From Actinocatenispora rupis (GTDB lineage: Bacteria > Actinomycetota > Actinomycetes > Mycobacteriales > Micromonosporaceae): a stretch of 64,000 nucleotides of DNA. Below the pieces are notes generated by a model. It did no database searches, was not told the DNA's origin, and worked only from the letters and a program-made list of their open reading frames with translations. Position numbers and translations under genes: made by a program. The stretch lies in contig NZ_BOMB01000025.1 of NCBI RefSeq assembly GCF_016861975.1, positions 1 to 64,000 of the forward strand, read 5' to 3'. This document shows positions 8,915 through 28,317 of this stretch, piece by piece. Each line of letters begins with the position of its first letter. The stretch's first letter is position 1.

Positions 8915-10207
8915 GTGCGGAGAACATCCGCCCTCGCGCGGCCTGCCCTGTTCGCCGCGGTACTCGGCACGGCGGCGGCGGTCCTGCTGCCCGGGTCCGC
9001 GGCCGCCGCGCCCGACCTGCGCGCGCGCAGCTGGTACCTGGAATCCCTGCACCTCGCGGCCGCGGAGCGGATCGCGACCGGTCGTGGGGTCACCGTCGCG
9101 GTGCTGGACAGCGGCGTCAACGAGATCCCCGAGCTGTCCGGCCGCGTCCTCCCCGGGTACGACCCGGGCGGCGGCGACGGTCGCCGTGACCGCACCGGCC
9201 ACGGTACGAGCATGGCGGCGCTGATCGCCGGCGCCGGCGGCAGCGGAGACCGGCTGCTCGGGGTGGCACCACGGGCGACGATCCTGCCGGTGTACGCGTT
9301 CGGCCAGCCGTTGCCGGTCCCGTCGGCGACGATCGTCCGGCTCGTGCACCACGCGATCGATCACGGCTCGCGCGTCGTCACCATGTCGTTCGCCGCGCCC
9401 GACGCGACACCCGCGTCCGCCGGCTGGAAACGCGACCCCGTCTCGTACGCGGACGCCCACCGCGCGGTGCTCGTCGCCGCCAGCGGCAACCGTACGGAGG
9501 GCATGACCCGCATGGGCCGCCCGGCCGACGTACCGGGGGTCGTGGCGGTGACCGGCCTCGCGCGGGACGGCGGCGCCTGGTCCGGTTCGGTCACCGGCGC
9601 CGCCGCGGCCGTCGCGGCGCCGGCCGAGGCCCTCTCGTTCCCCACCGGCATCCCCGGCAAGGAGACCGGTACGGCCAGCGGTACCAGCGGCGCCGCCGCC
9701 CTCGTCTCCGGCGAGCTGGCCCTGATCATGGCGAAGTACCCGGGGATCTCGTCCGCGGACGCGATCAACCGGCTCGTCCGCACCGCGCGCGACCTCGGCG
9801 CCAGGGGCCGCGACCCGGTGTACGGGTTCGGCGCCGCCGACGCCGCCGCCGCGCTGACCCGGGACGTACCGAAGGCCGGCGGCAACCCGCTGCGGACCGC
9901 GTCGCCGTCGGCCGGGTCCGACTCCGTGGTCCCGGGCGTGTCGACGGTCGTGCTGCTCGCGGGCGTCCTGGTGGCGGCCGTGCTGGTCGCCGCCCTCGTC
10001 CTGATCATCCTCGTGGTACGTGCGCGCCGCCGCCGCGGTCCCGGTGACGGCGGTGGCGGTGGTGGCGGCGGCCCGGGCGGCCCCCCGCCGTACGGTCCCG
10101 GCCCGGGGCCTACCGGGTACGGTGACCCGCCCCAACAGCCACCCGTACCGGCGCAGCCCGCTCGGGTACCGGTCGGTCAGTCGAGCGGCCCGCCCCGCAG
10201 TCCCTGA
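8915..10207 (+). CDS. mycP: Type VII secretion-associated subtilisin-like protease (mycosin), short cysteine-free form
   Basis: GTG 8915 follows AGGGAGG by a few bases; the 430-residue protein starts with a signal peptide ending near AAAAPDLRA. Catalytic triad D65 (VAVLDSGV), H96 (GHGTSM) and S258 (GTSGAAALVSG), oxyanion Asn in AASGN. The C-terminus has one membrane helix (VVLLAGVLVAAVLVAALVLIILV) and a Gly/Pro-rich cytoplasmic tail, the standard mycosin layout with the protease outside. I see no cysteines, so the disulfide of classical mycosins is absent. It converges on the tagged substrate module and is paralogous to the protease at 25197. The open frame to 6344 overlaps the phosphatase and is spurious. 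Confidence 0.92.
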   Translation: MRRTSALARPALFAAVLGTAAAVLLPGSAAAAPDLRARSWYLESLHLAAAERIATGRGVTVAVLDSGVNEIPELSGRVLPGYDPGGGDGRRDRTGHGTSMAALIAGAGGSGDRLLGVAPRATILPVYAFGQPLPVPSATIVRLVHHAIDHGSRVVTMSFAAPDATPASAGWKRDPVSYADAHRAVLVAASGNRTEGMTRMGRPADVPGVVAVTGLARDGGAWSGSVTGAAAAVAAPAEALSFPTGIPGKETGTASGTSGAAALVSGELALIMAKYPGISSADAINRLVRTARDLGARGRDPVYGFGAADAAAALTRDVPKAGGNPLRTASPSAGSDSVVPGVSTVVLLAGVLVAAVLVAALVLIILVVRARRRRGPGDGGGGGGGGPGGPPPYGPGPGPTGYGDPPQQPPVPAQPARVPVGQSSGPPRSP

Positions 10208-10240
10208 CCGGGGCTCCGGTGGCAGCATTCCGGTGACAGC

Positions 10241-10270
10241 GCAGGGGCCGGGGAGTCACCCGGCCCCTGC
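10241..10270. terminator. Hairpin between convergent genes
   Basis: A perfect 12-bp stem, arms GCAGGGGCCGGG and CCCGGCCCCTGC, with a 6-base loop, lies between the stop codons of the mycosin and the tagged substrate gene. There is no T-tract on either side, as usual in very GC-rich actinomycetes. It can serve both strands. Confidence 0.75.
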
Positions 10271-10287
10271 ACCGCGATCCGGTGCGG

Positions 10288-11385
10288 TCAGGCGTCGTCG
10301 CCGCTGGCCCTCGGCCGGCCGCCGAGCACCCCGCTCGCCGCCTCCTCGTCGCCGCCCCAGACCTGCTCGTCCTCCGTCAACCAGGTGCTGTACTCCGCCG
10401 GCTCGTCCTCGCCCCCACCGCGCCGGCCCGGCGCGCCCCGGCCCGACACGCTCGACGTACCGTCCGCGGCGGGGCCGAAGCGGCCGACCCCGGCACCGAC
10501 CCCGCCCGCGCCCTGCGGCGCCGACGCGAGCGCGCTGCCACTTGTGTCACCAGGTACTCCGGCACCGGTCGGCCCGGCACCCGCACCGGCCAGCGCCGTC
10601 GACCCGAGTACGTCGGGGTGGGCTCCGCCGTCGCCGTTGGTACCGCCGCGGTTGCCGTCGCCCGCTTGCGGCCCGTCCGGCCGGCGTACGTCGAAGGTCC
10701 CGTGCCTGTCGTGGCGGTTCGCGGCCGGGTCGGTGGCCGGCACGCCCGACGTCCCGGTGGACGTCGCCGACCGTACGTCCGGGTCGCTGTCGTGCGTGTC
10801 GTCGCCGGGCATGTCGTGGTTCCAGTCCGGCGCGGACCACTGGTGCGCCCCCGTCTGGTACTTCCCGGCCAGCCCCGCGACCAGCGCCACCATCCGGTTC
10901 CTGGCCTGCTCGCGCTGGTGCTTGTCGCGGTTGTGGCCCATCACGCCGCCGATGAGCCCGCCGACCGGGCCGGCGACGACGGCCCCGGCCACGGCGCCAC
11001 CCATGGTGGAGTCGTTGTCGTCGGTCCGGTCGGGGTTCTCGTTCTGCTTCTGCGCCTCGCGCAGGTCCGCCGACAGGTCCGCCATCGTCGTCTGGAACGT
11101 GCCGATGTCCGTGGACAGGTCCTCGGCGAACTGCGACACCAGCGCCATCCGTCGCTGGAACTCGTCGCCCGCCGCGCTCGACCACTGCGCGCCCAACGTG
11201 GCCAGCTCGGTACGCAGGTTGGTGTGCAGGTCGTGGGCGCCCCGTACGATCTTCTTCCACTCCGCGAGCAGGTCGTCGACCTGCTCCGGGTCACCGGCCT
11301 TGAGCCACCTGTACAACTCGTCGTGGCTGTACTTCCCGTACTTCTCGACCAGGTCCTGGTTGTCGACCGGTGGCGGCGCACCCAT
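10288..11385 (-). CDS. Large WXG-like type VII substrate with conserved C-terminal tag (module 1)
   Basis: ATG 11385 shares one base with the stop of the gene before it (TGATG), so translation is probably coupled. The 365-residue protein begins with a helical domain of about 110 residues resembling WXG100/PPE-type helical hairpins, but at the turn it has QWSSAAGDEF rather than W-x-G. A Gly/Ala-rich stretch (VAGAVVAGPVGGLIGGVMGH) and a long Gly/Pro/Asp-rich low-complexity region follow. The C-terminus carries TWLTEDEQVWGGDEEAAS followed by GVLGG. The same tag pattern ends the protein at 24080-25135. By position and shape it is a likely export substrate; no enzymatic domain is recognised. Confidence 0.8.
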   Translation of the reverse strand: MGAPPPVDNQDLVEKYGKYSHDELYRWLKAGDPEQVDDLLAEWKKIVRGAHDLHTNLRTELATLGAQWSSAAGDEFQRRMALVSQFAEDLSTDIGTFQTTMADLSADLREAQKQNENPDRTDDNDSTMGGAVAGAVVAGPVGGLIGGVMGHNRDKHQREQARNRMVALVAGLAGKYQTGAHQWSAPDWNHDMPGDDTHDSDPDVRSATSTGTSGVPATDPAANRHDRHGTFDVRRPDGPQAGDGNRGGTNGDGGAHPDVLGSTALAGAGAGPTGAGVPGDTSGSALASAPQGAGGVGAGVGRFGPAADGTSSVSGRGAPGRRGGGEDEPAEYSTWLTEDEQVWGGDEEAASGVLGGRPRASGDDA

Positions 11386-11747
11386 CAGGACCCCTTCAAC
11401 GCGGTACCGACCGGGCCCATCGTCCGGGCGATGTCCCTGCTGTTCGCGTGGTTGCGCGCCTCCGCCGTCGCGTACGTGTCGAGGATGCTCGTGGTCGCCT
11501 TCCGCGCCGCCTCGACCGCGCTCCGCAAGCGCTGCACGCGGGCGCGGTAGTCCGACACCATCGACGCGTAGTACGACTCGGTGTCGGTGGCGTCGGGGAA
11601 CCCGCCGAGCTTCGGCGGTACGTCGAGCAGCTTGTCGTCGATCGTCTTGAGCATCGACGCGATGGCGCTGTGGTGGTTGTCCAGTGCCGTCGTGAAGTCC
11701 GCCAGCGAGTGCACGTCCACGACGGTCCTGCCGTACTCCGTGGTCAT
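11385..11747 (-). CDS. Small helical partner protein of the tagged substrate (module 1)
   Basis: Read from ATG 11747 (MTTEYGRTVVDVHSLADF), 120 residues, almost entirely predicted helix, without signal peptide or membrane segment. Its tail, EARNHANSRDIARTMG, resembles DRNNASMKDFDTAF in the 147-residue protein at 23626, and both are directly followed by a large tagged WXG-like gene. This suggests a PE/PPE- or EsxA/EsxB-like heterodimer, with this protein as the small half. Stop and next start overlap by one base. The ORF extends upstream to 11843, but those codons precede a natural start and look non-coding. Family name not recognised. Confidence 0.75.
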   Translation of the reverse strand: MTTEYGRTVVDVHSLADFTTALDNHHSAIASMLKTIDDKLLDVPPKLGGFPDATDTESYYASMVSDYRARVQRLRSAVEAARKATTSILDTYATAEARNHANSRDIARTMGPVGTALKGS

Positions 11748-11897
11748 CGAAGAGCCCCGTTCGTCCGCTACGTCTTCGTCGATCCGGATCGGGGCCGCGC
11801 GGCGTGATCGACCCCTGACAGCCGTACACCAGCCTAGGGACACGGCTTCGCATGTCTGTCGGCTCTGTTGCAGAACGTCGGTTGTCGGATGACCGAC

Positions 11898-13334
11898 TCA
11901 GTCGCCGGCCTTCTGCGCGCTCGCGGTCGGCGACGGCGCCGGGGCCGAGGAGAACTTCAGCGCCGCGTCCGGATCCAGCGCCGGCCCGGTCGGCACCAGG
12001 TCGAGCAGCGGCTTCGGCACCGCCACCGGCTTCTTCCCGCCGTACCCCAGCAGGTCGGCGGCCTTCTTCCTGCCCGAGTCGACCAGCGCGTACTTGTGGC
12101 CCTGGTCGGTGACCAGGTAGATCGTGGTGCCGGCGGTGACGCCCGGCTGCGGCTCCTCGCGGACCAGCGCGCCCCGCCCACCCGGTACGACGATGCGGTC
12201 GGCGACCGGTCCGTCGTCGGCCGGGCCGCTCGCCTCCTGCGCGGCGTTCGGGTCGGGGCGGAGCGCGGCCGGCGTCTGCGGGTAGAGCCGGAGCCGGACC
12301 GACCCGCTCGTCCCCTCGTACGCCGCGCACACCGCGGGCTGGCTGCCGCTCGGCGCCGCGATCCTCGGTACGCGCTGCGGAAAGCCGGTCGCCTCGATGG
12401 TGTTCTTGCTGTTCAGGTCGCCGGCGACGGCGCTGGACGGTACGTGCGTCGGCTGCGCCCCGCCGAGCAGCAGCTTCGCGGTCACCTCGTGGATCGACAC
12501 CAGCCCGTCGCGCAGCAGTACGTAGTAGACGCCGCTGCTCTCGAAGACGTCACCGACCTTGTGCTCCGCGCCGTTCACGGTACGGCCCGGCTCGTCCTTG
12601 CCCGGGATGGTCGGCGGGGCCAGGTCCGGGCCGGACGGGATGGCGCTCAGCATCGCCGTGCCCACCACCGAATGGTCGGCGCCGGTCAACCCCAGCGAGG
12701 TCAGCGCCGTCGCGTCGGGCACCTTGAACCGTTCGTCGTGCCACAGCAGGTACGTGGTGCCCTGCGTGTCGCCCTCGGTCACCAGCAGGCCGTCCTGCCC
12801 CGGGCCGGCGCCGCCGGGCAGCGCCCGACCCACCATCAGCTCCGTCGCCAGCGTGCTCGACGAACTCGCGTACTTCGGGGAACTGCACACGATCCACGGC
12901 ATGCCGAGCAGTGCCGACGGGTCGGGAATCGAGTCGGGCGCGCCGACGATCCCGGTCGCCGCACCGCGCGGTACGCCACGCAGCGAACTCGCCGAGACCT
13001 GTTGCGGCGCAACGCTTCCGACGATGAGCCGGGCGGACGCGTAGTTCAGGATCGGGTGCAGCTCACCGCTCTGGTACACGTAGCGGGCGCCGGACTCGCG
13101 CTCGATGACGAACGAGCCCTCCTTCTTCCAGGAGTCGGCGCCGCCCGGACGCAGCACCCCGTAGACCCCGACGCCGGCGAAGACGATCACGCCGACCATG
13201 AGGCTCGCGAACGCCGCGAGCCCCAGCCGGCGCATCGGCAACACGGTGCTTTCCGGCTCGCCCGAGAGCATCGCGCCGACGATCCTCCGGGTGACGAACC
13301 GGTATCCCTGCAGCTGTTCCCGCCGAGTCGGCAT
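11898..13334 (-). CDS. eccB: Type VII secretion protein EccB
   Basis: 478 residues beginning MPTRREQLQGYRFVTRRIVG, the highly conserved EccB N-terminus, followed by a single membrane helix at about 37-60 and a large exported domain with the GSFVIERESGARYVYQSGELHPILNY segment typical of the family. EccB is a core part of the ESX membrane complex, its outer domain forming the periplasmic roof. It reads away from eccE and probably shares a transcript with the substrate module 150 bases downstream. Cysteines are present in the exported domain (for example WIVCSS and PAVCAAY), consistent with a disulfide. Confidence 0.95.
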   Translation of the reverse strand: MPTRREQLQGYRFVTRRIVGAMLSGEPESTVLPMRRLGLAAFASLMVGVIVFAGVGVYGVLRPGGADSWKKEGSFVIERESGARYVYQSGELHPILNYASARLIVGSVAPQQVSASSLRGVPRGAATGIVGAPDSIPDPSALLGMPWIVCSSPKYASSSSTLATELMVGRALPGGAGPGQDGLLVTEGDTQGTTYLLWHDERFKVPDATALTSLGLTGADHSVVGTAMLSAIPSGPDLAPPTIPGKDEPGRTVNGAEHKVGDVFESSGVYYVLLRDGLVSIHEVTAKLLLGGAQPTHVPSSAVAGDLNSKNTIEATGFPQRVPRIAAPSGSQPAVCAAYEGTSGSVRLRLYPQTPAALRPDPNAAQEASGPADDGPVADRIVVPGGRGALVREEPQPGVTAGTTIYLVTDQGHKYALVDSGRKKAADLLGYGGKKPVAVPKPLLDLVPTGPALDPDAALKFSSAPAPSPTASAQKAGD

Positions 13335-13374
13335 TGCGAACTCCCCGTGTGTCGCATTGATGCCAATCCCTGGT

Positions 13375-13391
13375 CGATCGGAGGACGATCG
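13375..13391. promoter_or_regulatory. Candidate operator between eccB and eccE
   Basis: Two CGATCG hexamers lie 11 bp apart, one helical turn, in the 184-bp divergent spacer between eccB and eccE. The spacing suits a dimeric regulator that could control both directions. No binding protein is known from the sequence. Confidence 0.3.
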
Positions 13392-13518
13392 TATGACCGG
13401 CGTGCAACGGTGGCCCGTGCCGGTTTTGTGCCGGCCCTACGATGGGTGGCCGCCGCGGACCGATGCGTACTTGCGGCGTCCGTACTCGGATGTCCTGAAC
13501 GGGGAAGGATGGCGAGGC

Positions 13519-14766
13519 ATGGTGATGACGCAGGCCCCGCCCGCGCGGGCCCGTGCCGCGGTCCGGGTCGACGACGCGGGCGCCGGGGAGGTGCGTTTCG
13601 CCCCGCGCGGCGGCCGGCGCCGGTTCGGCGGCGTGCGGGTCACCCAGTTCGTCCTGGCCGAGCTGGGGCTCGCCGCGCTGGTGATCGCCGCGAACCGGGA
13701 ACCCCGGCCGATCTGGCTGGTCGCGGCCGGCGTCGTCGCGCTGGCGCTGCTGTTCGTGGCGTTCGGGCGCAGCGGCGGCCGCTGGTGGACCGAGTGGATC
13801 ACCCTCCGCCGGCGGTACCGCAGGCGTCGCGGCGCGCTCGGCGGCGCCACCGAGGACGCCCGGCTCGCCGCGCTGCGCCGGCTGGTACCCGAGCTGTCCA
13901 TCCGTACGGTCGAGGACCGGGGCAGCCGCATCGGCATCGGGCAGGACGAGTCCGGCTGGTTCGCCGTCGTCGCCATCGCCCCGCGTACCGGGCTGCGCGG
14001 TGACCCGACGGAGAGCCTGCCGCTGGACGCGCTCGCCCGGGTCCTCGACGAGGGCGGCCTGCGCGTCTCCGTACTCCAGGTCGTCGTGCACAGCATCCCC
14101 GGGCCGGCCGCGCTGCTGGACGACACCGCGCCCGCCGCCCGCTCGTACCGGGAGCTGGCCTCGGGGGACACCGGCGTGGAGCCGATCGACCAGCGGTGCT
14201 GGATCGCGGTCCGGCTCGACCCCGCCGCGGCGTCCGAGGCGGCGGCCACCCGCGGCGGTGGACTCGACGGCGTGCACCGAGCCCTGTGTACCGCGGTCGG
14301 CCGGCTCGGGAAGGCCGTCAGCGGCGCCGGCCTCGACTACGAACTGCTCGACGCGGAGGGTGTCCGCGACGCGCTGGCCCAGTCCTGCGGCGTCACCGGG
14401 TACGTCGACCCCGGCTCGGTCGGCACCATCGGCGAGCAGTGGTCGAGCTGGCGCGCCGGCGGCCTCGCGCACGCGTCCTTCTGGGTACGGTCCTGGCCGC
14501 GGCTGCGCGACGTCAGCGGCGTGCTCGGCCGCCTCGCGCGTACCCCGGCGGTCATGACCAGCGTCGCGCTGACCATGGCACCGCAGGAGGACGGCACCGA
14601 CTTCCGGGTCCTCGTCCGCGTCGCCGCCCAACCCGAACACCTCGCCACCGACTGCCGCGCGCTGCAACGCCTCGCCGGCGTCTCGCGCGCCCGGCTGTTC
14701 CGGCTCAACGGCGAGCAGGCCCCCTCCGTGTACGCCACGGCCCCGAGCGGAGGTGGCCCGCAGTGA
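13519..14766 (+). CDS. eccE: Type VII secretion protein EccE
   Basis: About 415 residues. Near the N-terminus are two adjacent membrane helices (FVLAELGLAALVIAANR and PIWLVAAGVVALALLFVAFG), followed by a basic patch (RRRYRRRRG) and a cytoplasmic domain of about 300 residues with RTVEDRGSRIGIGQDESGWFA, the EccE pattern. EccE sits at the rim of the ESX inner-membrane complex. The start could be ATG 13519 or ATG 13525; GAGG at 13514 favours the second slightly. The stop overlaps the next GTG by four bases (GTGA), so both are translationally coupled. Confidence 0.88.
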   Translation: MVMTQAPPARARAAVRVDDAGAGEVRFAPRGGRRRFGGVRVTQFVLAELGLAALVIAANREPRPIWLVAAGVVALALLFVAFGRSGGRWWTEWITLRRRYRRRRGALGGATEDARLAALRRLVPELSIRTVEDRGSRIGIGQDESGWFAVVAIAPRTGLRGDPTESLPLDALARVLDEGGLRVSVLQVVVHSIPGPAALLDDTAPAARSYRELASGDTGVEPIDQRCWIAVRLDPAAASEAAATRGGGLDGVHRALCTAVGRLGKAVSGAGLDYELLDAEGVRDALAQSCGVTGYVDPGSVGTIGEQWSSWRAGGLAHASFWVRSWPRLRDVSGVLGRLARTPAVMTSVALTMAPQEDGTDFRVLVRVAAQPEHLATDCRALQRLAGVSRARLFRLNGEQAPSVYATAPSGGGPQ

Positions 14767-16919
14767 GCGTGTACGGATCGCGTCGCCCGCCGGAGGATCC
14801 CGACCCGCCCCACGGCCGACACGCGCAGCCCGACGACGAGGACCAGCCGGCGACCGGCGTCGCGTCACCCGCCGACGGGGCCGGCGGCCGTGCCGTGCCA
14901 CCCACCTCGGGCCCGGCACCGCTGATCCCCGGCCTGGCCCCCGGCCCCGGTACTCCCGGCACCACGTACGGGTCCGCCCGGCCACCCGCCGACCCGCCGT
15001 CGAGCCAGGGCACGTCACCCGCCCGGCCGCCGACCGGCTCGTACCCGGCGGTCGGTGGTGGTGCGCCGCGTCCCCCGGACCCACCCGGTACGGGCCAGCC
15101 CGCCGGATCCCGTGGCGCCCGGCAGATGTCAGGCAGCGCTGGCCAACCGACCGCGGGGCGGCCCGGATCCGCGCAGCCGGCCCCGGGCCAACCCGCTCCC
15201 ACCCGGCCGGCTCCGCCCGGATCTGGCTCTGCGCAACAGATTCCGGGTCAACCTGCTGCACCGGGCGGGCCGGCCGCGGGGCAACCTTCCGTCAAGCCCG
15301 GAACTGGGCGCGCGCAACCGATGCCGGGTCAGTACGCCGCCGGCCAACCGATCTCGGGTCAACCTGGCTCGGGTCAACAGCAAGTGCCCGCCCCGCCCGG
15401 ATCTGGCTCTGCGCAGTCGGCCTCGGGCCAACCTGGTACGGGGCAACCGCCCGCGTCAGCCTCCCCCGGATCTGGCTCGGCCTCGGGGCAACCTGGTACC
15501 GGGCAGCCGGTCCAGCCCGCCCCGCCAGGACCTGGCTCCGCACAACGGATCCCGGGGCGACCCGTCGCGGGGCAGCCGGTCCCGAGCCGACCGGCGGCCG
15601 CTCGGCCGTCCATGGCTCAGCCAGGCCCCGGAGAACCGATCCCGGGGCAGGCTGCTCCCGTTCAGCCTGGAGCGGTACAGGCGGGCGCCGGTCGGCCTGG
15701 ATCCGGCCCCGCGCAACCGATCCCGGCCCCACCTGGCCGGCCGAACCCAGGGCAGCCTGCGCTCGGTCAAGCGACCTCAGGGCAGTCCCTCCCCGCCCAG
15801 CCGGGTGCCGGGCAACCAGGTACCGGACCGTCCACGTACGCCGGGCAGGCGACGGGTGGCGTGGCGCCGTGGCCCGGGCGTACGCCAGGCTCGGACGCCC
15901 CCGTCAGCAGCCCGCCGGTGAGTGGGCCGCCGGTCAGCGCGCCACCCCGGAACCCGGTGAGCGGACCGCCGGTGAGCGGCCCACCCGGTACGGCGGGGGT
16001 GCTGGCGCCGATGAGCGCACCGCAGCAGCCGCGACGGCCGGTCCCGACTGGACCGTCCGGCCCGCTGAACGCCGGGGGTACGTCGACCGTGCTGCCGGTG
16101 TCCGGTGCGCCGGTGTCGGGCGCGTCGATGCCGGGCATCGTACGGCCGGGTCAGGCGCAGCCGCCGCTCGGCGCGGGCACCGTGTACGGCGCGGTCGAGC
16201 CGGCCACCCTGCCGGAGCGGTCGCGTCCGCGCCGGCTGCGACCGTTCTCGCCGATGCGGATCGGCATGCACGGCGTGTCCAGGACGGCGTTGCAGCAGAT
16301 CGAGGTGCCGGGGTCGAGCAGCGGCCTGATGTTGGGGCAGGACGGCAACAAGGTCCCGGTGCTGGTCCGGATGTTCCGTGACGAGCCGACCCGGCTGTCG
16401 CTGATCGGTGGGCTGTGGGCGGCCCGCGTGACGGTGTTCCGCGCGCTGGCGATGGGCGCCCGCGTCGTGGTGTTCACCGGTCAGCCGACCGAATGGAAGG
16501 GTTTCGGCCGCTGGGCGACGGGCCGGGACGACCGGGTCGCGGTGATGTCGGGCGAGCGTGCGGTGACGGTGGGCGCGACGGCCACCTCACCCGCCCTCCT
16601 GCTGTACGACGTGGGCTTGAACGGTGCGCAGCAGCCGCCCGCGCTCGGCCCGTGGCAGACGCAGCTCACGGTGTTGCGCCAGCTGACGGCGTACGGGTTT
16701 CCGCCGGTGCAGGCGTCGAACATGGTACTGATGCAGCGGCTCGCGCCGAACGAGGCGCACGCCGCCGCGTCCGTCCTGAAGCTCACCGACGAGACGGTGT
16801 CGCTGCTGCAACTCCTCCGCGACGACATGCTCGCCGTACTCGGTGGCCAGGCCGACCGGTACCTCTGGCTGAACCCTACGCAGATCGAGAACACGCAGTT
16901 CGGCGCCGCGCACCGCTGA
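14763..16919 (+). CDS. Pro/Gly/Gln-rich repeat protein of the type VII operon, C-terminal domain of unknown function
   Basis: 718 residues, coupled to eccE by a GTGA overlap. Residues about 60-475 are low complexity, built from degenerate units such as GQPAPGSGSAQ and GQPGTGQP and later SGPPVSGPP; no membrane helix is present. Residues about 485-718 form a compact, well-behaved domain with LMLGQDGNKVPVLVRMFRDE, RVTVFRALAMGARVVVFTG, LLLYDVGLNG and a terminal LNPTQIENTQFG. I cannot name it. Location in the operon argues for a cytoplasmic accessory of the secretion machine, perhaps EccE- or chaperone-like; that is inference. Confidence 0.8.
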   Translation: MSVYGSRRPPEDPDPPHGRHAQPDDEDQPATGVASPADGAGGRAVPPTSGPAPLIPGLAPGPGTPGTTYGSARPPADPPSSQGTSPARPPTGSYPAVGGGAPRPPDPPGTGQPAGSRGARQMSGSAGQPTAGRPGSAQPAPGQPAPTRPAPPGSGSAQQIPGQPAAPGGPAAGQPSVKPGTGRAQPMPGQYAAGQPISGQPGSGQQQVPAPPGSGSAQSASGQPGTGQPPASASPGSGSASGQPGTGQPVQPAPPGPGSAQRIPGRPVAGQPVPSRPAAARPSMAQPGPGEPIPGQAAPVQPGAVQAGAGRPGSGPAQPIPAPPGRPNPGQPALGQATSGQSLPAQPGAGQPGTGPSTYAGQATGGVAPWPGRTPGSDAPVSSPPVSGPPVSAPPRNPVSGPPVSGPPGTAGVLAPMSAPQQPRRPVPTGPSGPLNAGGTSTVLPVSGAPVSGASMPGIVRPGQAQPPLGAGTVYGAVEPATLPERSRPRRLRPFSPMRIGMHGVSRTALQQIEVPGSSSGLMLGQDGNKVPVLVRMFRDEPTRLSLIGGLWAARVTVFRALAMGARVVVFTGQPTEWKGFGRWATGRDDRVAVMSGERAVTVGATATSPALLLYDVGLNGAQQPPALGPWQTQLTVLRQLTAYGFPPVQASNMVLMQRLAPNEAHAAASVLKLTDETVSLLQLLRDDMLAVLGGQADRYLWLNPTQIENTQFGAAHR
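15213..15749 (+). repeat. Degenerate minisatellite in the Pro/Gly-rich gene
   Basis: Within the low-complexity half of the preceding gene, a 23-bp stretch encoding PPGSGSAQ is repeated exactly at 15213-15235 and 15393-15415, 180 bases apart, with looser copies near 15468 and 15708. Between them the unit GGGTCAACCTG/GGGCAACCTGG recurs. The array keeps the reading frame, so length changes by recombination would be tolerated. Confidence 0.7.
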
Positions 16920-16922
16920 CCG

Positions 16923-18648: not shown

Positions 18649-21600
18649 ATGAGCACCGTGGTGTTCCGCCGCCCGCCCCGGCGTCCCGGGCCCCAGCTGC
18701 CGCGCGGTGAGCTGCTGTTGGAGTCGCCGCCGGAGGTACCGGAGGAGCTGCCCCGCGGTCTCGGCCAGATCCTGATGGTCCTGCCGATGCTCGCCGGCGC
18801 CGGCGCCATGGCCTTCATGTACGCGGGGCGTGGCGGCGGCATGATGACGTACGTCGCGGGTGGCATGTTTGGCGTGTCGATGCTGGGCATGGCGGTGGGC
18901 CAGCTCGGCGGCGGCCGCGGCGACAAGACCGCCGAGCTGAACGCGGAACGCCGCGACTACATGCGTTACCTGGCGCAGATCCGTAAGCGGGTGCGGCGGG
19001 CGTCGGAGGCGCAGCGTGCGGCGCTGACGTGGAAGCACCCGGAGCCGGACGCGCTGTGGTCGATCGCCGCGTCGCGGCGGATGTGGGAGCGTCGGATATC
19101 CGACGACGACTTCGGCGAGATCCGCGTCGCGGTGGGGCCGCAGAAGCTGGCGGTCAAGATCGTCACGCCGGAGACCAAGCCGGTCGAGGACCTCGAACCG
19201 ATGAGCGCGATCGCGTTGCGCCGCTTCGTCCGTACGTTCAACCCGGTGCCGAACCTGCCGACGGCGGTGTCGCTGCGCGCGTTCAGCCGGATCGTGCTGC
19301 GCGGCGACCGGGAGGCGGACCTGGGCGCGGCGCAGTCGTTGCTGTGCCAGGCGGCCACCCTGCACGCGCCCGACGACCTGCGCATCGCGGTGGTCACCCC
19401 GACGGAGAACTTCGCGCTCTGGGACTGGACCAAGTGGCTGCCGCACAACCAGTACCCCCGGCGTACGGACGCGGCGGGTCCGGTGCGGATGGTGTTCGAG
19501 ACGATGGCCGAGCTGGAGGAGCTGCTGGCGGAGGAGATCTCGGCCCGCCCGCGGCACTCGCCCGACGCCAAGCCGCTGACCGACCAACCCCACCTCCTCG
19601 TCGTACTCGACGGCGGCGAGGTCACGGCGGACTGCCAGCTCACCGGCCCCGCCCTGCTCGGTACCACGGTGCTGGACCTGAACGGGACGGTGCCGCGGGA
19701 CGCCGGCCGCTGGCTGCTGTGCCTCGACCTGTGGCCGGACAAGGCGGAGGTGTACCGCGGGGACCGGAGTACGCCGATCGGGCGGCCGGACCACATGAGC
19801 CGCGAGCAGGCCGAGGCGGTCGCCCGGCAGCTCGCGCCGTACCGGATGTCCGCGCAGGCCGGGCCGGAGGACACGCTGGCCACCGCGTACGAGCTGACGG
19901 ACCTGCTGGGGGTGGGCGACGCCGGCGGCTTCGACCCGCACCGGACGTGGCGGCCGAACAAGCCGAACCGCGAGCGGCTGCGCATCCCGCTCGGCCGCGG
20001 CCCGGACGGCGGGCTGGTCGAGCTGGACATCAAGGAGGCGGCGCAGGAGGGCATGGGGCCGCACGGCCTGATCATCGGCGCGACCGGGTCCGGCAAGTCG
20101 GAGCTGCTGCGCACGATCGTGTCCGCGCTGGCCATCGGCCACTCGTCCGAGGAGCTGAACCTCGTCCTCGTCGACTTCAAGGGCGGCGCCACGTTCGCGT
20201 CCCTCGACGTACTGCCGCACACGAGTGCGGTGATCACCAACCTGGAAGACGAGATCGAGCTGGTCGACCGGATGAAGGACGCGCTGGCCGGCGAGATGGT
20301 GCGCCGCCAGGAGCTGCTCCGCGCCGCCGGCAACTACGTCTCCCAGTACGAGTACGAGAAGGCGCGGCGGGCCGGTGAACCGCTGGAACCGTTGCCCGCA
20401 CTGCTGATCATCTGCGACGAGTTCTCCGAACTGCTGGCCGCGAAGCCGGACTTCATCGAGCTGTTCGTGATGATCGGCCGGCTCGGCCGGTCGCTCGCGG
20501 TGCACCTTCTCCTTGCCTCCCAACGGTTGGAGGAGGGCAAGCTGCGCGGACTGGACACGCACCTGTCCTACCGGATCGGGTTGCGGACGTTCTCGGCGGT
20601 CGAGTCGCGGATCGTGCTCGGCGTCCCCGACGCGTACGAGCTGCCCAACGCGCCGGGCCACGGTTACCTCAAGGTCGACACGTCGACGATGCTGCGCTTC
20701 CGCGGCGCGTACGTGTCGGGTCCGTACAAGCAGGGTGCGGCGAAGGAGCGGGAGCAGGCGCTGGTGTCCGGCAAGGTCGTGCGGTTCACGGTGGACCACA
20801 CGCCGGTGCCGGACCTGCCCGAGGAGCACGAGCCGGAGCCGCAGCACGACGAGCAGGGCGGCAAGCAGACCTCCGTACTGGAGGTCATCGCGGACCGGTT
20901 GACCGGCCAGGGCAAGCCGGCGCACCAGGTGTGGCTGCCGCCGCTGTCCGCGCCGCCGCCGCTGTCGGAGCTGCTGCCGGAGCTGATGGTCGACCCGGAG
21001 CGCGGCCTGTGCCCCGCCGGGTCGGACCGGCTCGGCACGCTGACCACCCCGGTCGGCGTCGTCGACAAGCCGTACGAGCAGAAGCGCGACCTGTTCACCG
21101 CGGAGCTGGGCGGCGCCGGCGGCAACGTGATCATCGTGGGCGGCCCGCAGACCGGCAAGAGCACCATGCTGCGGTCGCTGATCTGTTCGCTCGCGCTGAC
21201 CCACACCCCGCGCGAGGCGCAGTTCTTCTGCCTGGACTTCGGCGGCGGCACCCTCACCACCCTCAAGGACCTGCCGCACGTGTCCGGCGTCGCCACCCGC
21301 CGCGAGGCCGAGGCCGTCCGCCGTACGGTCGCCGAGGTGATCGGGGTGCTGGACGCGCGCGAGGCGCGGTTCACCGAGCTGGGCATCGACTCGATCGCCA
21401 CGTACCGGCGGCGGCGCGCGGCGGGCGAGTTCGCCGACGATCCGTTCGGGGACGTGTTCTTGGTCGTGGACGGCTGGGGCACCGTCCGCGAGGACTACGA
21501 CGAGTACGAGCAGAAGCTGGCCAGCCTGGCGCAGCGCGGCCTCGGCTTCGGCGTACACCTGGTGATCACGGCAGCCCGCTGGGCCGAGGTACGGATCAAC

Positions 21601-22608
21601 ATGCGCGACCTGCTCGGTACCCGGTTCGAGCTGAAGCTGGGTGACCCGGCCGAGTCCGAGATCGACCGGCGCTCCGCCGCCAACGTGCCAGCTCGTACGC
21701 CGGGGCGCGGCCTGTCGCCGCAGAAGCTGCACTTCCTGTCCGCGGTACCGCGGATCGACGGGCACGCCACCGACGAGAACCTGTCCGACGGCGTCGCCGA
21801 CCTGGTACGACGGATCCGCGACGGCTGGTCGAAGGACCCCGCGCCGAAGGTACGGCTGCTGCCGCGGATGTTCACGGCGGAGCGGTTCGTCGAGGAGGCG
21901 CCGCAGAGCCGGTCCGGCCTGGTCACGATCGGCCTGGACGAGAGCCAGCTCGCGCCGGTCGCGCTGGACTTCGCGACCGAGCCGCACTTCTTCGCCCTCG
22001 GCGACTCGGAGAGCGGCAAGTCCACGCTGCTGCGGGTCATCGCGAAGCAGCTGGTCGCGAAGTACACACCGGAGCAGGCGCGGATCATCATCGCCGACTA
22101 CCGGCGTTCGCTGCTGGGCGCGATCGGCGGCGACCACCTCCTCGGGTACGCGGCGTCCGGGCAGGCGTTGCAGGAGATGATGGGCTCGGTCGTCGGCTCG
22201 ATGAAACGGCGGCTGCCCGGCCCGGACGTCACGCCCGAGCAGCTCCGGGACCGCAGCTGGTGGAGCGGCCCCGACCTGTACGTACTGGTCGACGACTACG
22301 ACCTGGTCGCCAGCCCGTCCGGCAACCCGATCGCGCCGCTCGCCGAGTTCCTGCCGCAGGCCCGCGACATCGGCCTGCACCTGATCCTCACCCGCCGGTG
22401 CGGCGGCGCCGCCCGCGCCATGTACGAGCAGGTCGTCCAGCGGCTCAAGGAGCTGGACAGTCCGGCGCTGCTGATGTCCGGAAACCGGGAGGAGGGCGCG
22501 CTGTTCGGCAGCCTCAAGCCCAGCCCGCAGCCGCCGGGGCGCGGCACCCTGGTCCGCCGCAGGGAGGGCAACGAGCTGATCCAGCTCGCGTACCTGCCGC
22601 CGTCGTGA
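18649..22608 (+). CDS. eccC: Type VII secretion ATPase EccC (single-chain, three FtsK/SpoIIIE domains)
   Basis: 1319 residues, so EccCa and EccCb are fused as in ESX-3 and most non-mycobacterial systems. Two membrane helices lie near residues 35-85. Three ATPase domains carry intact Walker A motifs: GATGSGKS (K483), GGPQTGKS (K837) and GDSESGKS (K1124). Walker B is complete only in the first ([10 protein letters not shown]); the second and third read VVDGWG and LVDDYD, the usual EccC pattern in which only the first domain is strongly catalytic. It recognises C-terminal signals of WXG100 substrates through the last domain. The WXG100 pair follows 220 bases downstream. Confidence 0.97.
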
Positions 22609-22828: not shown

Positions 22829-23146
22829 ATGGGCAACGGGCCCATGCAGGTTGACCACGCGACACTGCACACCGCTGCCAATGACGTCCGGTCGACCCGG
22901 GACGAGATCCAGGGCGACCTGAACAAGCTGGAATCGCTTGTGCAGCAGGACCTTGAGAGTGCCTGGAAGGGCACCGCCGCGGGGTCGTTCCAGACTCTGA
23001 TGCAGCGCTGGCACGAGGACAGCAAGACGCTGATGCAGGCGATGGCCGACATCGCCGACCTGCTCGACAAGTCGGGTACCCAGCACCAGCAGAACGACGA
23101 GAACCAGCAGCAGATGCTGGACAAGATCCATCAGGCGCTGGGCTGA
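22829..23146 (+). CDS. WXG100-family protein (EsxA/EsxB-like), first of pair
   Basis: ATG 22829 follows GGGAGG; 105 residues, two helices with the W-x-G turn at W46-K47-G48 (ESAWKGTAAGSF). The C-terminal tail ends DENQQQMLDKIHQALG, a helical tail of the kind bound by EccC. It forms a bicistron with the next WXG100 gene 20 bases downstream and is presumably secreted with it as a heterodimer. The open frame begins earlier at 22781, but the WXG100 fold starts at MQVDHATL. Confidence 0.93.
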   Translation: MGNGPMQVDHATLHTAANDVRSTRDEIQGDLNKLESLVQQDLESAWKGTAAGSFQTLMQRWHEDSKTLMQAMADIADLLDKSGTQHQQNDENQQQMLDKIHQALG

Positions 23147-23166: not shown

Positions 23167-23448
23167 ATGTCGATGATCAAGGTTGACCCGCACGTACTGC
23201 AGGAAGCCCACGCGCAGATGAAGTCGATCGCGCAGGGCATGGACAGCAAGCTGGACACGCTGCGTTCCGGCCTGCAGCGGATGGAGTGGGAGGGCAGCGA
23301 CCGCACCGCGTACCAGGAGCACCAGGCCAAGTGGGACAAGGCCGTGACCGACCTCAACGCGGTGCTGAACCAGATCGGCGCCGCGGTCGGCATCGCCAGC
23401 GACAACTACGTCAACACCGAGATGAGCAACAGCAAGCTCTGGGGCTGA
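23167..23448 (+). CDS. WXG100-family protein (EsxA/EsxB-like), second of pair
   Basis: 93 residues with the turn W41-E42-G43 (MEWEGSDRTAYQ) between two helices and a short tail NSKLWG. ATG 23167 is preceded by GGGGACGGGGAG. As the second member of the pair it lacks the longer C-terminal tail of its partner, the usual division in EsxA/EsxB couples. The hairpin after it probably ends or attenuates the transcript. Confidence 0.93.
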   Translation: MSMIKVDPHVLQEAHAQMKSIAQGMDSKLDTLRSGLQRMEWEGSDRTAYQEHQAKWDKAVTDLNAVLNQIGAAVGIASDNYVNTEMSNSKLWG

Positions 23449-23625: not shown

Positions 23626-24069
23626 ATGGGACACGACTGGAGTGTCGATCTCGGTAGTACGAAGAAGATCGAGGTCGACACCGAGCATCTGGAGAACATC
23701 ACCAAGTACCTGAAGGTCTTGTCGGACTCGATCAACGACGACCTGCTGCCGTACCTGGACGAGGTCAACCGTGACGTGGCCTTCGGGTACGGCGGGGTCA
23801 AGATGATCCAGGGCGACGGCGGCGGGCAGGCCTCCGCGTTCGGTTCGCCCAACATCGCGACGATCGCCGACCTGGGGAAGAAGGTGGGCGACGCGTACAC
23901 GGCGGTGAAGGAGAGCCTGACGGCGATCGCCGGCGACTTCGACGCCTCCGGCTCGGCGATCTCGTCGATCGCCGAGAAGTACAAGAGCTCGGACGACCGG
24001 AACAACGCGTCGATGAAGGACTTCGACACGGCGTTCAGCGCGGCGAAGTCCAGCGGGACGAACGGGTAG
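23626..24069 (+). CDS. Small helical partner protein of the tagged substrate (module 2)
   Basis: ATG 23626 (MGHDWSVDLGSTKKIEVDTEHL) after TTGGAG; 147 residues, mostly predicted helix, with a Gly-rich loop in the middle (FGYGGVKMIQGDGGGQASAFG). No signal peptide. The tail DRNNASMKDFDTAFSAAKSSG parallels the tail of the 120-residue protein at 11385-11747, and both precede a tagged large protein. A role as the small half of an exported pair is inferred from this arrangement. The frame runs back to 23533, but that part lies in the leader hairpin region and lacks coding character. Confidence 0.78.
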   Translation: MGHDWSVDLGSTKKIEVDTEHLENITKYLKVLSDSINDDLLPYLDEVNRDVAFGYGGVKMIQGDGGGQASAFGSPNIATIADLGKKVGDAYTAVKESLTAIAGDFDASGSAISSIAEKYKSSDDRNNASMKDFDTAFSAAKSSGTNG

Positions 24070-24079
24070 GGGGCGGGTC

Positions 24080-25135
24080 GTGCCGAGTTGGGAAGAGATC
24101 GTCACCGACATCGTCATCTGCAGCAACTACTACGGCATCGACGACGCCGCGACCGGCTGGAGCGCCATCTTCCGCCACATGGGTACGCTGCGCGACGACG
24201 TCGACCGGCTCGCCAAGGAGAGCAAGCCGTGGAAGGGCCAGGCGGCCGACGACTTCCGCAAGCACCTGAAGAAGTGCTCCGACGCGCTGGAGGACCTCGA
24301 CACCAACCACCGCAAGATCGTCCATGCGCTGGAGGGTGCGAGCGAACACCTGAGTACGGCGGTGAACAAGATTCCGATCCCGGCCTGGATGATCCACAAG
24401 GTCGAGGACGCGCAGGCGGCGTACGCGAAGGGCATGTCGGTGCCCGGCTTCTCGCCCGGCTCCTTCGCGCAGGAGGCGCTGGCGATCGACGGCGACCTCG
24501 TGTCGGGGATCCCCGGCGTCAAGGATCTGGCCGGCTGGGTGGGCGGCAAGGAGGACACGGCGCAGGCCGCGTACAACCAGCTGATCAGCGACTACAACGG
24601 GGACATCCAGGCGGTGCCCGCGGGGACGAAGTCCAACCCCGGCGCGGTCGACAAGGACGACGACTACGGCGACACGCCGACGGGTGGCGGCGGTGGCGGA
24701 CACGTACCGCCGACCGGAACGGGGACGCCGCCGCACACCAGGACGCCGACCAGCCCGACGCCGAAACCGCCGCACACCACCGATCCGAGTACGCCGTGGA
24801 AGGACCCGTCGGCGGACTATCCCGGCGGCGACCCGAGCGGTGGCGGCGCCGGATCGGGCCTGGCGGGCGCGGGCGGTGGACCGCTCGGTGCGGGTACCGG
24901 TGGTGGCGGGCTGGGCGGTGGCACCCGGGGTGTACCGCCGCTGGGGCCGACGGCGGATCCGGCCGCCGATGCGGCACGTGCCGGCGCCGGCGGTGCCGCC
25001 GGAATGATGGGCCGCGGTATGGGCCGGGGTGGCCACGGCGAGGGCGAGGGTGACGAGCACGAGACCTGGCTGACCGAGGACGAGGATCCCTGGGGCGCCG
25101 ACGGCGACGCCAACCCGTCGGTACTCGGTTCCTGA
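24080..25135 (+). CDS. Large WXG-like type VII substrate with conserved C-terminal tag (module 2)
   Basis: GTG 24080, ten bases after its partner gene; 351 residues. The N-terminal 150 residues are helical with a true W-x-G turn (KPWKGQAADDFRKHL), followed by a second helical segment, then Gly/Pro/Thr-rich low complexity and the tail TWLTEDEDPWGADGDANP plus SVLGS. The tag matches that of the protein at 10288-11385 (TWLTEDE-x2-WG-x-D-x6-VLG). It lies 61 bases ahead of a mycosin, so module 2 has the order partner, substrate, protease on one strand. Likely an exported substrate; no enzyme domain seen. Confidence 0.83.
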   Translation: MPSWEEIVTDIVICSNYYGIDDAATGWSAIFRHMGTLRDDVDRLAKESKPWKGQAADDFRKHLKKCSDALEDLDTNHRKIVHALEGASEHLSTAVNKIPIPAWMIHKVEDAQAAYAKGMSVPGFSPGSFAQEALAIDGDLVSGIPGVKDLAGWVGGKEDTAQAAYNQLISDYNGDIQAVPAGTKSNPGAVDKDDDYGDTPTGGGGGGHVPPTGTGTPPHTRTPTSPTPKPPHTTDPSTPWKDPSADYPGGDPSGGGAGSGLAGAGGGPLGAGTGGGGLGGGTRGVPPLGPTADPAADAARAGAGGAAGMMGRGMGRGGHGEGEGDEHETWLTEDEDPWGADGDANPSVLGS

Positions 25136-25196
25136 TCGCGCACTTCGTCGTCGTCCGGGCGGGGGCACGCTCGGGCGACAGGAGGAGATGGCTTCC

Positions 25197-26528
25197 GTGC
25201 GACGTTTCCGGACCCGCCCCGCGGGCCGCACCCACTCCCGCCGCCGGCCGGTACTCGTGCTGGCGGCCACCGCGACGGCCGCCGTGCTGGGCGTCCTCGC
25301 CGTGCCGGGGCCCGCCCTCGCCATCGACGTACGGGCGGGGCAGTGGCAGCTCGACGCGCTGCACATCGACCGGGCGCAGCAGCTGAGCCGGGGTTCCGGG
25401 GTCACCGTCGCGGTCGTCGACAGCGGCGTCGACGCGTCGCATCCCGACCTGTCCGGGCAGATCCTTTCCGGTACGGCGATCGGCGGCGGCAAGGGCGGCG
25501 CGAACGACGGCCGTACCGACGCCGCCGGGCACGGTACCCACATGGCCGGTGACATCGCCGCGAAGGGCGGCGGCCGGGAGCACGCGCTGGGCATCGCGCC
25601 GGGCGCGAAGATCCTTCCGGTCCGGGTGTTTTCCACCGGGACCGCCGAGCCGAGCGACATCGCCGCCGGGATCCGTTGGGCGGTCGACCACCACGCGAGG
25701 ATCGTCAACGTCTCGCTGAGCGCCAACGGCACGGCGCCGTCCGGCCTCGTCGACGCCATCGGGTACGCGATGCGCAAGGGCGCGGTCGTCGTGGCCGGTG
25801 CGGGAAACCTGAGCAACGGCCAGGACGGCGTGGGCTATCCGGCGAACGTACCGGGTGTGGTCGCGGTGTCCGGCACGACACGGGGCGGGGCGTTCTGGTC
25901 CGGGTCGGTCGGCGGTCCGCCCGTCGCGCTGGCCGCACCCGCCGACGGTGTGGTGTCGACCGGGTCGAAGGCGGCCGGCAACCGCACCGGGTACACGAGG
26001 GACGAGGGCACCAGCGACGCGGCCGCGTTCGTGTCGGGTGCGGCCGCCCTGGTGTGGTCGAAGTACCCGAGCCTCAGCGCGCCGGACGTGATCGAGCGGC
26101 TGATCAGGACCGCCGACGACGCCGGCCCGAGCGGCCGCGACACGCAGTACGGGTTCGGGCGGCTCGACGTCGTGAAAGCCTTGACCGCCAAGGGAATCCC
26201 ACACGTCGGCCGCAACCCGCTGCTGGCCGGCGGCACGGGTTCCGGCGCGGCCACCCCGGACGGCGGCAGGACCCTGGTACTCAAGGACCGCACCGGCACG
26301 TACCTCACGTACGGCGGGATCTTCTGCGGGGTCGGCGTACTCGTCGTGGTCCTCGTGGTGGTGATGGTGGTCGTCTCCGGCCGCCGCCGGCGCCGGCGCG
26401 CGCAACCGCCGGCCGGTCCACCACCGGGCGCCTTCCCTGACCCCGGCCGACCCGTCCCGCCGTACGCGCCGCCGCCCGGATACCCGGGCGCGCCACCGCC
26501 GCAACATCCCCCGAACCCGCCGCACTGA
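25197..26528 (+). CDS. mycP: Type VII secretion-associated mycosin, short form (module 2)
   Basis: I choose GTG 25197 because the GGAGG at 25181 is spaced correctly for it, while ATG 25188 lies only two bases from it; the protein then starts VRRFRTRP, like the paralogue at 8915. 443 residues: signal peptide ending PGPALAIDV, triad D75 (VAVVDSGVD), H112 (GHGTHMAG), S273 (GTSDAAAFVSG), oxyanion Asn in GAGN, one membrane helix near the end (with the only cysteine) and a Pro-rich tail. It belongs with the substrate pair directly upstream. Confidence 0.93.
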   Translation: MRRFRTRPAGRTHSRRRPVLVLAATATAAVLGVLAVPGPALAIDVRAGQWQLDALHIDRAQQLSRGSGVTVAVVDSGVDASHPDLSGQILSGTAIGGGKGGANDGRTDAAGHGTHMAGDIAAKGGGREHALGIAPGAKILPVRVFSTGTAEPSDIAAGIRWAVDHHARIVNVSLSANGTAPSGLVDAIGYAMRKGAVVVAGAGNLSNGQDGVGYPANVPGVVAVSGTTRGGAFWSGSVGGPPVALAAPADGVVSTGSKAAGNRTGYTRDEGTSDAAAFVSGAAALVWSKYPSLSAPDVIERLIRTADDAGPSGRDTQYGFGRLDVVKALTAKGIPHVGRNPLLAGGTGSGAATPDGGRTLVLKDRTGTYLTYGGIFCGVGVLVVVLVVVMVVVSGRRRRRRAQPPAGPPPGAFPDPGRPVPPYAPPPGYPGAPPPQHPPNPPH

Positions 26529-26724
26529 CCCGCGGCCCTTGGCGGGTCTCACGCCGACGACGTCGAGGACGCGCAGGGCACGGATGCGTGACCCCGCGCC
26601 CTCGTCGGCACGGACCCCTCCGGTACGCCCGGCTGATCGGAACGGTGCCGTCCCGATGGTGCTGGTGTCCGCGCTGGCGCGGCCGATCCGTACGCGGACG
26701 CTGACCGTCCACTGTGGACCCGTT

Positions 26725-26757
26725 ACGGGCCGCTCGGCGTCACGCCGGGCGGCCCGT
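26725..26757. terminator. Hairpin between two convergent mycosin genes
   Basis: A stem of 9 bp (ACGGGCCGC / GCGGCCCGT), a G-T pair and 5 more bp (CGGCG / CGCCG) around a TCA loop lies in the 283-bp spacer between the convergent proteases. A GTCCACTGTGGAC palindrome lies just before it at 26707-26719. Confidence 0.75.
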
Positions 26758-26811
26758 GGTCACGCGTACGCCAGATCCGTTGGGGTACAAGGGAATCGGC
26801 ATCTGCGGCGG

Positions 26812-28317
26812 TCAGCCGCGACCGCCGCTCGGGAGTGCACGCGCCCCGCCGGGGAGTGCGCGGGGTGTGCCGGCGAAACCGCCCTGGCCAGTACGTGAAC
26901 CGCCGGGCCCGCTCGGCGTGTTGCTGCGGGAACTCGGCGCGGTGACGGCAACCGGCCTGCCGTCGTCGGGTGCCGCGGGCCGCCGGCCGGTCGGGCGGTC
27001 CGCGCCGTCCGGTACGAACGCCGCCCGTCCCGCGCGCCAGTCGCGACGCCGACCGCGCGGGACGACCCGGGAACCGATCAGCGCCAGTACGGCGAGGGCG
27101 AGGAGTGCCGCGGCGGTGATGCCGGCGGCGAGCTTCACGGTGCGCAGCGGGTCGGCGCGGGTCCGCGGGTCGGCCATCGACCTGTCGCCGGACCCGGCCG
27201 GCGCCGCCCCCGCGTCGTCCTTGAGCGTCGCCGTGAGCGCCCGGTACGGGTTGACCACGCCGTATCCGACGGTCGCGTTCCAGCCCTGCGGCGGGTGGTC
27301 GGCGGTGCGGAGGATGCGCTCGCGCACCTGCTCCGCACTGAGCTTCGGCTCGTACGCCCGGATCAGCGCGGCGACACCCGCCACGTACGGCGTGGCGAAG
27401 CTGGTGCCGGCCGGGAAGGTGATGAAGCCGCCGCCGGCGGGCGCCGGCCCGTCGATGTCCTTGCCGGGACCGGCCAGTTCCAGATAGTTCCCGGTACTGG
27501 AGGAGCCGACGTGGCCGCCCTTCTCGTCGATGCCGCCCACGGCGAGCACGCCGGGCAGCGCCGCCGGGTACTGCGCCTCGCCGTTGGCGTCGGTGTTGCC
27601 CTCGTTGCCGGCGGCGGCGACCAGCACCACGTCGTGCGCCAGCGCGTACTTCACCGCGCTGCGCAGCGCGTCGGTCGGCACCGTCGTCAGCGACATGTTG
27701 ACGACCCTGGCGCCGGCGTCGGTGGCGCGCCGGATCGCGTCGGCGATGTACCCCGGCGTGGCGTCGCTGCCCTTCTGATCGTTCACCAGCACCCGGTACG
27801 GCAGGATCTCGGCGTCCGGCGCCACCCCGTAGAACGGGGTGCCGGTGTCGTCGCGGCCGGCGATGATGCCCGCGACCACGGTGCCGTGTCCGTACTGGTC
27901 GCAGGTGCCGTTGCCGTCGGCGAGGTAGTCGTGACCGCCCTCGTACACCGCGTTCTTGAGGACGACGTTGTCGGGGGAGACGCCGGAGTCGATGACGGCG
28001 ACCTTGACGCCCTGGCCGCGGCTGAGCGGCCACGCGCGCTGCGGCTGGACCCGGTCGAGCCCCCACGGCGTCCGCTGGAGGGGGTTGTCGTGCGTGGCGC
28101 CGGCCGGTACGTGGCAGCTCTGCTGCGCGGCGACGGTGCCGCTGCCGGTGGCGACGTGGTGCTTCTTCGGCGCCGCGGCGGCCGGCACCGCCACCGCCAC
28201 CGCCACCGCCACCGCCGCGAGCGTGACGACGAGCCCTGCGGCGACACCCGCCCGGACCAGGGCAACCCGGATACTCGACCCGTTCGGCACGAAAGAAAGA
28301 CTAGTCGAGCGCCGCAC
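26812..28317 (-). CDS. mycP: Mycosin (MycP), long cysteine-containing form
   Basis: 501 residues from GTG 28317: signal helix (VAVAVAVAVPAAAAP), then the classical mycosin N-terminal extension that wraps the active-site cleft, triad D110 (VAVIDSGVS), H144 (YGHGTVVAG) and S306 (GTSFATPYVAG), a membrane helix (VKLAAGITAAALLALAVLALIG) and a Pro/Gly-rich cytoplasmic tail. C68 (QQSCHVP) and C139 (NGTCDQYGHG) fit the conserved mycosin disulfide. This is therefore closest to the structural MycP that caps ESX complexes, unlike the two shorter enzymes. No strong ribosome site is seen; GTG 28290 is a possible alternative start. Confidence 0.92.
   Translation of the reverse strand: MRRSTSLSFVPNGSSIRVALVRAGVAAGLVVTLAAVAVAVAVAVPAAAAPKKHHVATGSGTVAAQQSCHVPAGATHDNPLQRTPWGLDRVQPQRAWPLSRGQGVKVAVIDSGVSPDNVVLKNAVYEGGHDYLADGNGTCDQYGHGTVVAGIIAGRDDTGTPFYGVAPDAEILPYRVLVNDQKGSDATPGYIADAIRRATDAGARVVNMSLTTVPTDALRSAVKYALAHDVVLVAAAGNEGNTDANGEAQYPAALPGVLAVGGIDEKGGHVGSSSTGNYLELAGPGKDIDGPAPAGGGFITFPAGTSFATPYVAGVAALIRAYEPKLSAEQVRERILRTADHPPQGWNATVGYGVVNPYRALTATLKDDAGAAPAGSGDRSMADPRTRADPLRTVKLAAGITAAALLALAVLALIGSRVVPRGRRRDWRAGRAAFVPDGADRPTGRRPAAPDDGRPVAVTAPSSRSNTPSGPGGSRTGQGGFAGTPRALPGGARALPSGGRG

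Follow-up and report, generated by a model that had tools for sequence, protein, structure and literature searches.

The window analysed here, the whole stretch of 64,000 nucleotides from the soil actinomycete Actinocatenispora rupis (positions 1 to 64,000 of NZ_BOMB01000025.1, termed contig C25 among the 81 contigs of the 7.83 Mb genome examined), carries a type VII secretion system (T7SS) locus with three mycosins. Pfam matches and gene reading resolved one ESX-4-like core, two sets that each comprise a small helical partner, a long WXG/PPE-like protein and a short mycosin, and a third mycosin (Table 1), an arrangement already recognised in a first-pass annotation of this DNA. EccB, EccC, EccD, the WXG100 pair and a mycosin occur together in one locus, which is the gene content of an ESX-4-like T7SSa. 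The locus resembles the ESX-4-type systems of non-mycobacterial actinomycetes in having eccB, a single-chain eccC, eccD, mycP and a WXG100 pair with no eccA in the locus (PMC4791881, PMC11217815); it departs from these systems by the presence of eccE, by a partner/substrate pair linked to eccB and by two additional mycosins with putative substrates. Three P-loop motifs were found in EccC, as judged by eye, and the EccC of Actinocatenispora comari (88%) is its nearest relative among the named genomes. The best reading of these sequences is that the short mycosins belong to a second mycosin class, old and widespread, distinct from the built-in mycosin of the machine and inherited together with putative exported PPE-like pairs.

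Table 1. Genes of the type VII secretion locus, with positions in the window.
Feature	Position	Strand	Evidence and characteristics
mycL, left short mycosin	8915..10207	+	Peptidase_S8 4.4e-36; N-terminal hydrophobic segment, C-terminal transmembrane segment, no Cys
subL, left WXG-like long protein	10288..11376	-	Tail TWLTEDEQVWGG..VLGG (pattern at 10357-10383, -)
helL, left small helical partner	11385..11747	-	YATAE (YxxxD/E) signal
EccB	11898..13334	-	Pfam match 9e-103
EccE	13420..14766	+	Pfam match 1e-21; start approximate
prp, Pro-rich protein	14766..16919	+	Conserved C-terminal domain; beside eccE in related cores
EccD (YukD and transmembrane domain)	16968..18365	-	Pfam match
EccC, single chain, three FtsK/SpoIIIE stretches	18649..22608	+	Pfam match
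WXG100 protein 1	22829..23146	+	Pfam/NCBIfam
WXG100 protein 2	23167..23448	+	Pfam/NCBIfam
helR, right small helical partner	23626..24069	+	YKSSD (YxxxD/E)
subR, right WXG/PPE-like long protein	24080..25135	+	WKG turn; tail TWLTEDEDPWGA..SVLG (pattern at 25067-25093, +)
mycR, right short mycosin	25188..26528	+	One Cys in transmembrane segment; starts 53 bp behind subR
mycC, third, structural-class mycosin	26812..28317	-	N-terminal extension; Cys68/Cys139
SseB-domain protein adjoining mycC	28858..31365	+	Relatives beside mycosins elsewhere

The three mycosins of the window share with MycP the subtilase fold and a C-terminal transmembrane segment, and the Asp, His and Ser motifs are retained in all of them when aligned with MycP references, so that each is predicted from its sequence to be an active protease. 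A search of the mycosins against PDB sequences returned mostly subtilisins. Their relationships were examined in a quick tree of 117 mycosins and in a careful tree of 51 that included three mycobacterial plasmid MycP (L289-L291). In both trees, mycC and other core-linked mycosins of its type stand apart from a large group, the accessory clade, that holds mycL and mycR; in the careful tree the split has a support of 100/99, with the plasmid MycP on the side of mycC and both short mycosins opposite. The grouping of the two short mycosins had been set beforehand as a refutation test for the first-pass annotation, and they fell on the same side. The alignment further revealed an N-terminal extension with a cysteine, and a second cysteine before the catalytic histidine, common to mycC and the MycP references and absent in mycL and mycR. 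The classical MycP cysteine pair attributed earlier to the third mycosin was therefore recovered at residues 68 and 139, aligned with the references, while the description of both short mycosins as cysteine-free holds for mycL and fails for mycR, with its single cysteine at residue 380. A motif search outside Streptomycetaceae detected both cysteine positions in 18 of 21 structural-class proteins versus 0 of 56 accessory-class proteins; Streptomyces accessory mycosins carry other cysteines, and a missing pair alone does not divide structural from accessory mycosins. The NCBIfam model TIGR03921 (T7SS_mycosin; cut-off 278.75) is passed by mycC (309.4) and failed by the short mycosins (260.7 and 210.6). 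Its cut-off was dropped as a way of separating the classes, since an orphan mycosin on contig C27, from the accessory sub-clade found behind eccC in another ESX lineage, also passes it, at 318. Almost all complete cores in the lineage of the window are accompanied by a mycC-class gene. The tree, the extension with its cysteine pair, the TIGR03921 score and this distribution support the assignment of the third mycosin to the structural class, as had been proposed from the letters alone.

The left and right sets are not a pair of sisters. The mycL and mycR proteins are about 47% identical and branch at separate places within the accessory clade, so that a local duplication was rejected, and the two modules, described at first as paralogous, are separate members of a large family. 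The content of the left set was correctly described, with the exception of its single direction: mycL lies on the plus strand, convergent with subL, with the two stops at 10207 and 10288. This pairing of mycL with subL and helL is confined to Actinocatenispora, and the left module is, as far as gene neighbourhoods indicate, an old eccB-linked substrate pair with a mycosin gained in one genus. Identity to congeners amounts to 74-92% in the core, 60-67% in the left gene triad and 61% for the third mycosin. In the right triad the values are 27% for the partner, 31-35% for the N-terminus of the substrate and 47-50% for the mycosin, versus 85-92% for the adjoining esx genes. These differences would be explained most simply by replacement of the right triad as a unit.

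The inheritance of mycosin and neighbouring substrate was found to be coupled. Nearest neighbours agreed between the two proteins in 22 of 31 modules, where 1.1 were expected by re-pairing. When re-pairing was allowed only inside each single Actinocatenispora genome, a stricter test, the correlation (rho 0.73) was reached in 1 of 5000 rounds. This supports the co-inheritance of a mycosin with its neighbouring putative substrate beyond the relatedness of the genomes.

The proteins encoded beside these mycosins have features of T7SS substrates. In all eight aligned partners (those of the left and right sets and their A. comari, Dactylosporangium and Rhizocola counterparts), a YxxxD/E motif is present and its tyrosine is invariant; beyond this tyrosine, followed at +4 by Asp or Glu, and one invariant Asn, the left and right partners have little in common. 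YxxxD/E is an established general T7 export signal (Daleke et al. 2012, as summarised in PMC11217815). The long proteins consist of a WXG-like hairpin, a low-complexity Gly/Pro-rich linker and an acidic-aromatic tail; their WXG100 match lies below the curated cut-offs in both Pfam and NCBIfam, and the WKG turn is invariant in three right-module homologues. An AlphaFold model of the subR N-terminus, built from three sequences, had a predicted local distance difference test score of 53 overall and 70-85 in the hairpin, which makes the hairpin alone usable, and Foldseek with this low-confidence model returned weak matches to PPE41 (top, E 0.13) and PPE4, to be taken as a hint only. Like PE/PPE and EspB/EspC-like ESX substrates, the modules combine a helical YxxxD/E partner with a long protein containing a putative WXG hairpin; unlike these substrates, they have the tail and a mycosin of their own, and none of the four module proteins matches a PE or PPE Pfam domain. 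EspG had no match in the A. rupis genome, in a search whose control genomes gave none either and which therefore had no working control. Partner and long protein would probably form a PE/PPE- or EspC-like heterodimer.

Gene triads of this kind are dispersed well beyond the window. Three further triads whose substrates end in a tail of this type occur elsewhere in the A. rupis genome (on contig C40 and on contig C12 at 205 kb and at 8 kb), additional ones were found in Actinocatenispora congeners and across Micromonosporaceae, and pairs of tagged substrate and mycosin are present in Streptomyces. The mycosin typically overlaps the substrate gene or starts a few tens of bases from it (-66 to +62 bp in most co-directional pairs). 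The Streptomyces pairs consist of a WXG-like protein with the tail PDYLEEDEETW..PPVID upstream of an accessory mycosin near the core, mostly 9-37 bp apart, and several of these loci also contain a separate structural mycosin. Among 38 mycosins fetched by similarity alone and sorted partly by eye, about 23 stand behind a substrate-like gene, 8 show linkage to eccC/eccD of a different ESX lineage, and 7 are orphans. Earlier reports mention parts of such arrangements. Micromonospora lupini has two mycP in its core cluster and, apart from it, a cluster of esxA-esxB-mycP (PMC4182475), and the mycosin Sfla_1620 of Streptomyces pratensis lies beside Sfla_1621 in a highly divergent pair (PMC4239341); the passages concerned differ from the present observations in describing no second mycosin class, tail or dispersed triad family. 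No description of such a class or of the triads was found in the open-licence literature searched, which is no proof of novelty.

Taken together, we consider it moderately likely that the locus encodes an ESX-4-like system with one structural mycosin, mycC, and two accessory mycosins that act on exported PPE-like pairs. The helical partner and the long protein would form a heterodimer, the former contributing YxxxD/E and the latter the WXG hairpin, linker and tail. EccC would recognise the dimer through YxxxD/E, and export could proceed through the EccB/C/D/E channel of this core, capped by the third mycosin, rather than through one of the further EccC loci that the genome contains. On the outer face of the membrane, where they would be anchored, the accessory mycosins, devoid of the capping extension, would meet the exported long protein and trim its linker or its tail, the linker being favoured, in the way that MycP1 processes EspB (PMC5082899).

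Several observations weigh against this proposal. The cleavage step is itself one that we infer, and the protease activity of MycP5 has no known substrate and is dispensable for secretion (PMC5082899). Linkage alone could give coupled inheritance, and the convergent orientation of mycL and its putative substrate excludes their co-transcription. In other genera the left substrate pair has no neighbouring mycosin, and one congener (G011) retains mycL in a decayed core whose substrate is lost. The tail also adjoins structural mycosins (L093, L096) or occurs where the surrounding DNA, to about 10 kb, contains no mycosin (L104, L107, L110). Furthermore, in another ESX lineage a sub-clade of accessory-clade mycosins lies directly behind eccC (L293, L299, L302, L304, L308), so that membership of the accessory clade alone does not prove a non-structural role.

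The distribution of the tail bears on the strongest of the other explanations. The tails of subL and subR match one pattern, in agreement with the common C-terminal tag reported at first, and the reversed pattern, used as a control, gave 1 and 0 matches genome-wide. Of 23 eccB-linked tagged genes, two, both in Actinocatenispora, lie within 300 bp of an accessory mycosin; 21 have none within 1 kb, and 18 have no mycosin of any kind in the fetched locus. Among 39 other tagged genes, some of them doubtful by eye (e.g., L121, L122, L138), an accessory mycosin is present within 300 bp in 13 and within 1 kb in 17, a structural one within 1 kb in six, and in 13 cases the fetched stretch is devoid of mycosins. 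The tail could accordingly be a signal of general use, for T7 export or for docking to EccC, that is unrelated to mycosins, with the short mycosins co-inherited for some other reason, an explanation of sizeable probability that falls somewhat short of likely. It is favoured by the eccB-linked counts and by tagged proteins far from any mycosin, by the variants WLxEDxxxW, YLxEDEETW and PWExxEGV..DPGPxIG that end many T7-substrate-like proteins, and by C-terminal signals of WXG100 proteins known to bind EccC ATPase pockets (PMC11217815). It is disfavoured by the canonical YxxxD/E signal already present on the partner and by the three tail types, for which two changes, the fewest possible, suffice on the mycosin tree, although taxonomy confounds the Streptomyces type and the pattern is explicable by linkage and taxonomy. 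The acidic-aromatic tail is probably a general T7-substrate tail more than a protease tag. As a mark of short-mycosin substrates the tag was not upheld, and of the predicted co-occurrence of short mycosins with tagged substrates it is the co-inheritance that stands. In small-genome genera of the family, long proteins end in the tail ..TWLTEDDDVWG..DPYA (L104, L105, L107, L108, L110, L112, L124); no mycosin or ecc gene was detected within about 10 kb of them, and they appear to be solitary T7 substrates bearing the tail seen in the modules.

Alternatively, the short mycosins could be structural caps that adapt the channel to particular substrates by taking the place of the main mycosin or mixing with it, their protease activity being secondary. 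The essential role of the mycobacterial mycosin is structural and independent of protease activity (PMC5082899, PMC8131196), and this explanation would accommodate both the eccC-linked accessory-clade mycosins mentioned above and those inserted in the core between eccB/prp and eccD (G006, G024, G023, L163). However, loop 1 and the N-terminal extension provide most of the MycP5-MycP5 contacts of the cap in the ESX-5 structure (PMC8131196), and because the short mycosins have no such extension they appear poorly suited to form a MycP5-type cap. Most of them are also encoded in scattered loci that contain no ecc genes, and nearly all complete cores of the lineage have a mycC-class gene available, which makes alternative caps unlikely. 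A lineage-specific build-up of subtilases near substrate genes, with no specific pairing of enzyme and substrate, is very improbable, as the recurrent gene order with its tight spacing and the covariation that survives within-genome re-pairing outweigh the orphan mycosins without substrate (L145, L151, L152, L297, L300) and the genus-specific left pairing.

The proposal of accessory mycosins acting on exported pairs could be extended, tentatively and as something possible rather than probable, to the whole class: an old second class of actinomycete mycosins without the capping extension may consist of dedicated maturation proteases, with one PPE-like pair per cassette, dispersed loci serving a shared ESX core and a tail or linker matched to the mycosin. 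The mycosin is indispensable as a structural component, secretion does not require its activity, and MycP5 has no known substrate (PMC5082899); the purpose of mycosin proteolysis is an open question on which the accessory class bears. If the extension is correct, a class that lacks the capping extension, keeps the catalytic triad and has one candidate substrate each would be a natural separation of the protease function from the structural one, and the neighbours of accessory mycosins would name candidate substrates, offering a way to learn what these proteases cleave.

Regarding the remaining genes of the core, EccA was absent from the window, as noted at first, and no match above the curated cut-off was obtained in a profile search of the whole genome; AAA-domain matches at about half that cut-off are confined to other contigs, one of them near another EccC on contig C43. 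The missing EccA is unremarkable, since EccA is usually absent from ESX-4 clusters (PMC11217815). The order eccB-eccE-prp-eccD-eccC-esx-esx, with its eccB-linked partner/substrate pair, is found again in other genera of Micromonosporaceae. The prp product (14766-16919) has no match in Pfam or NCBIfam, and a prp-like gene is present at many cores of the lineage and at a second ESX locus of the same genome (L013 6704-7780). In other genera, the accessory mycosins between eccB/prp and eccD lie at L163 7298-8461, L135 13846-16155, L090 10964-12148 and L126 1207-2931; eccE was undetected at the G006 and G024 cores with an inserted accessory mycosin. At least five further EccC loci occur in the A. 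rupis genome (C48, C24, C49, C36, C43). The C48 core comes with an eccB-linked tagged protein of its own; a mycC-class mycosin lies at a distance of about 27 kb from it, and in two congeners the distance is of similar size (37-46 kb). In the decayed core copy of G011 (L292, G011:C1:1844001-1864000), eccB, eccC, eccD, the substrates, mycR and mycC were undetected, and mycL, eccE, prp, esx1, esx2 and the gene for the SseB-domain protein are retained. Relatives of the latter adjoin mycosins in other genomes (L240, L292, L298), one of them an orphan mycosin, and the SseB-domain protein could possibly be an unrecognised T7-linked protein.

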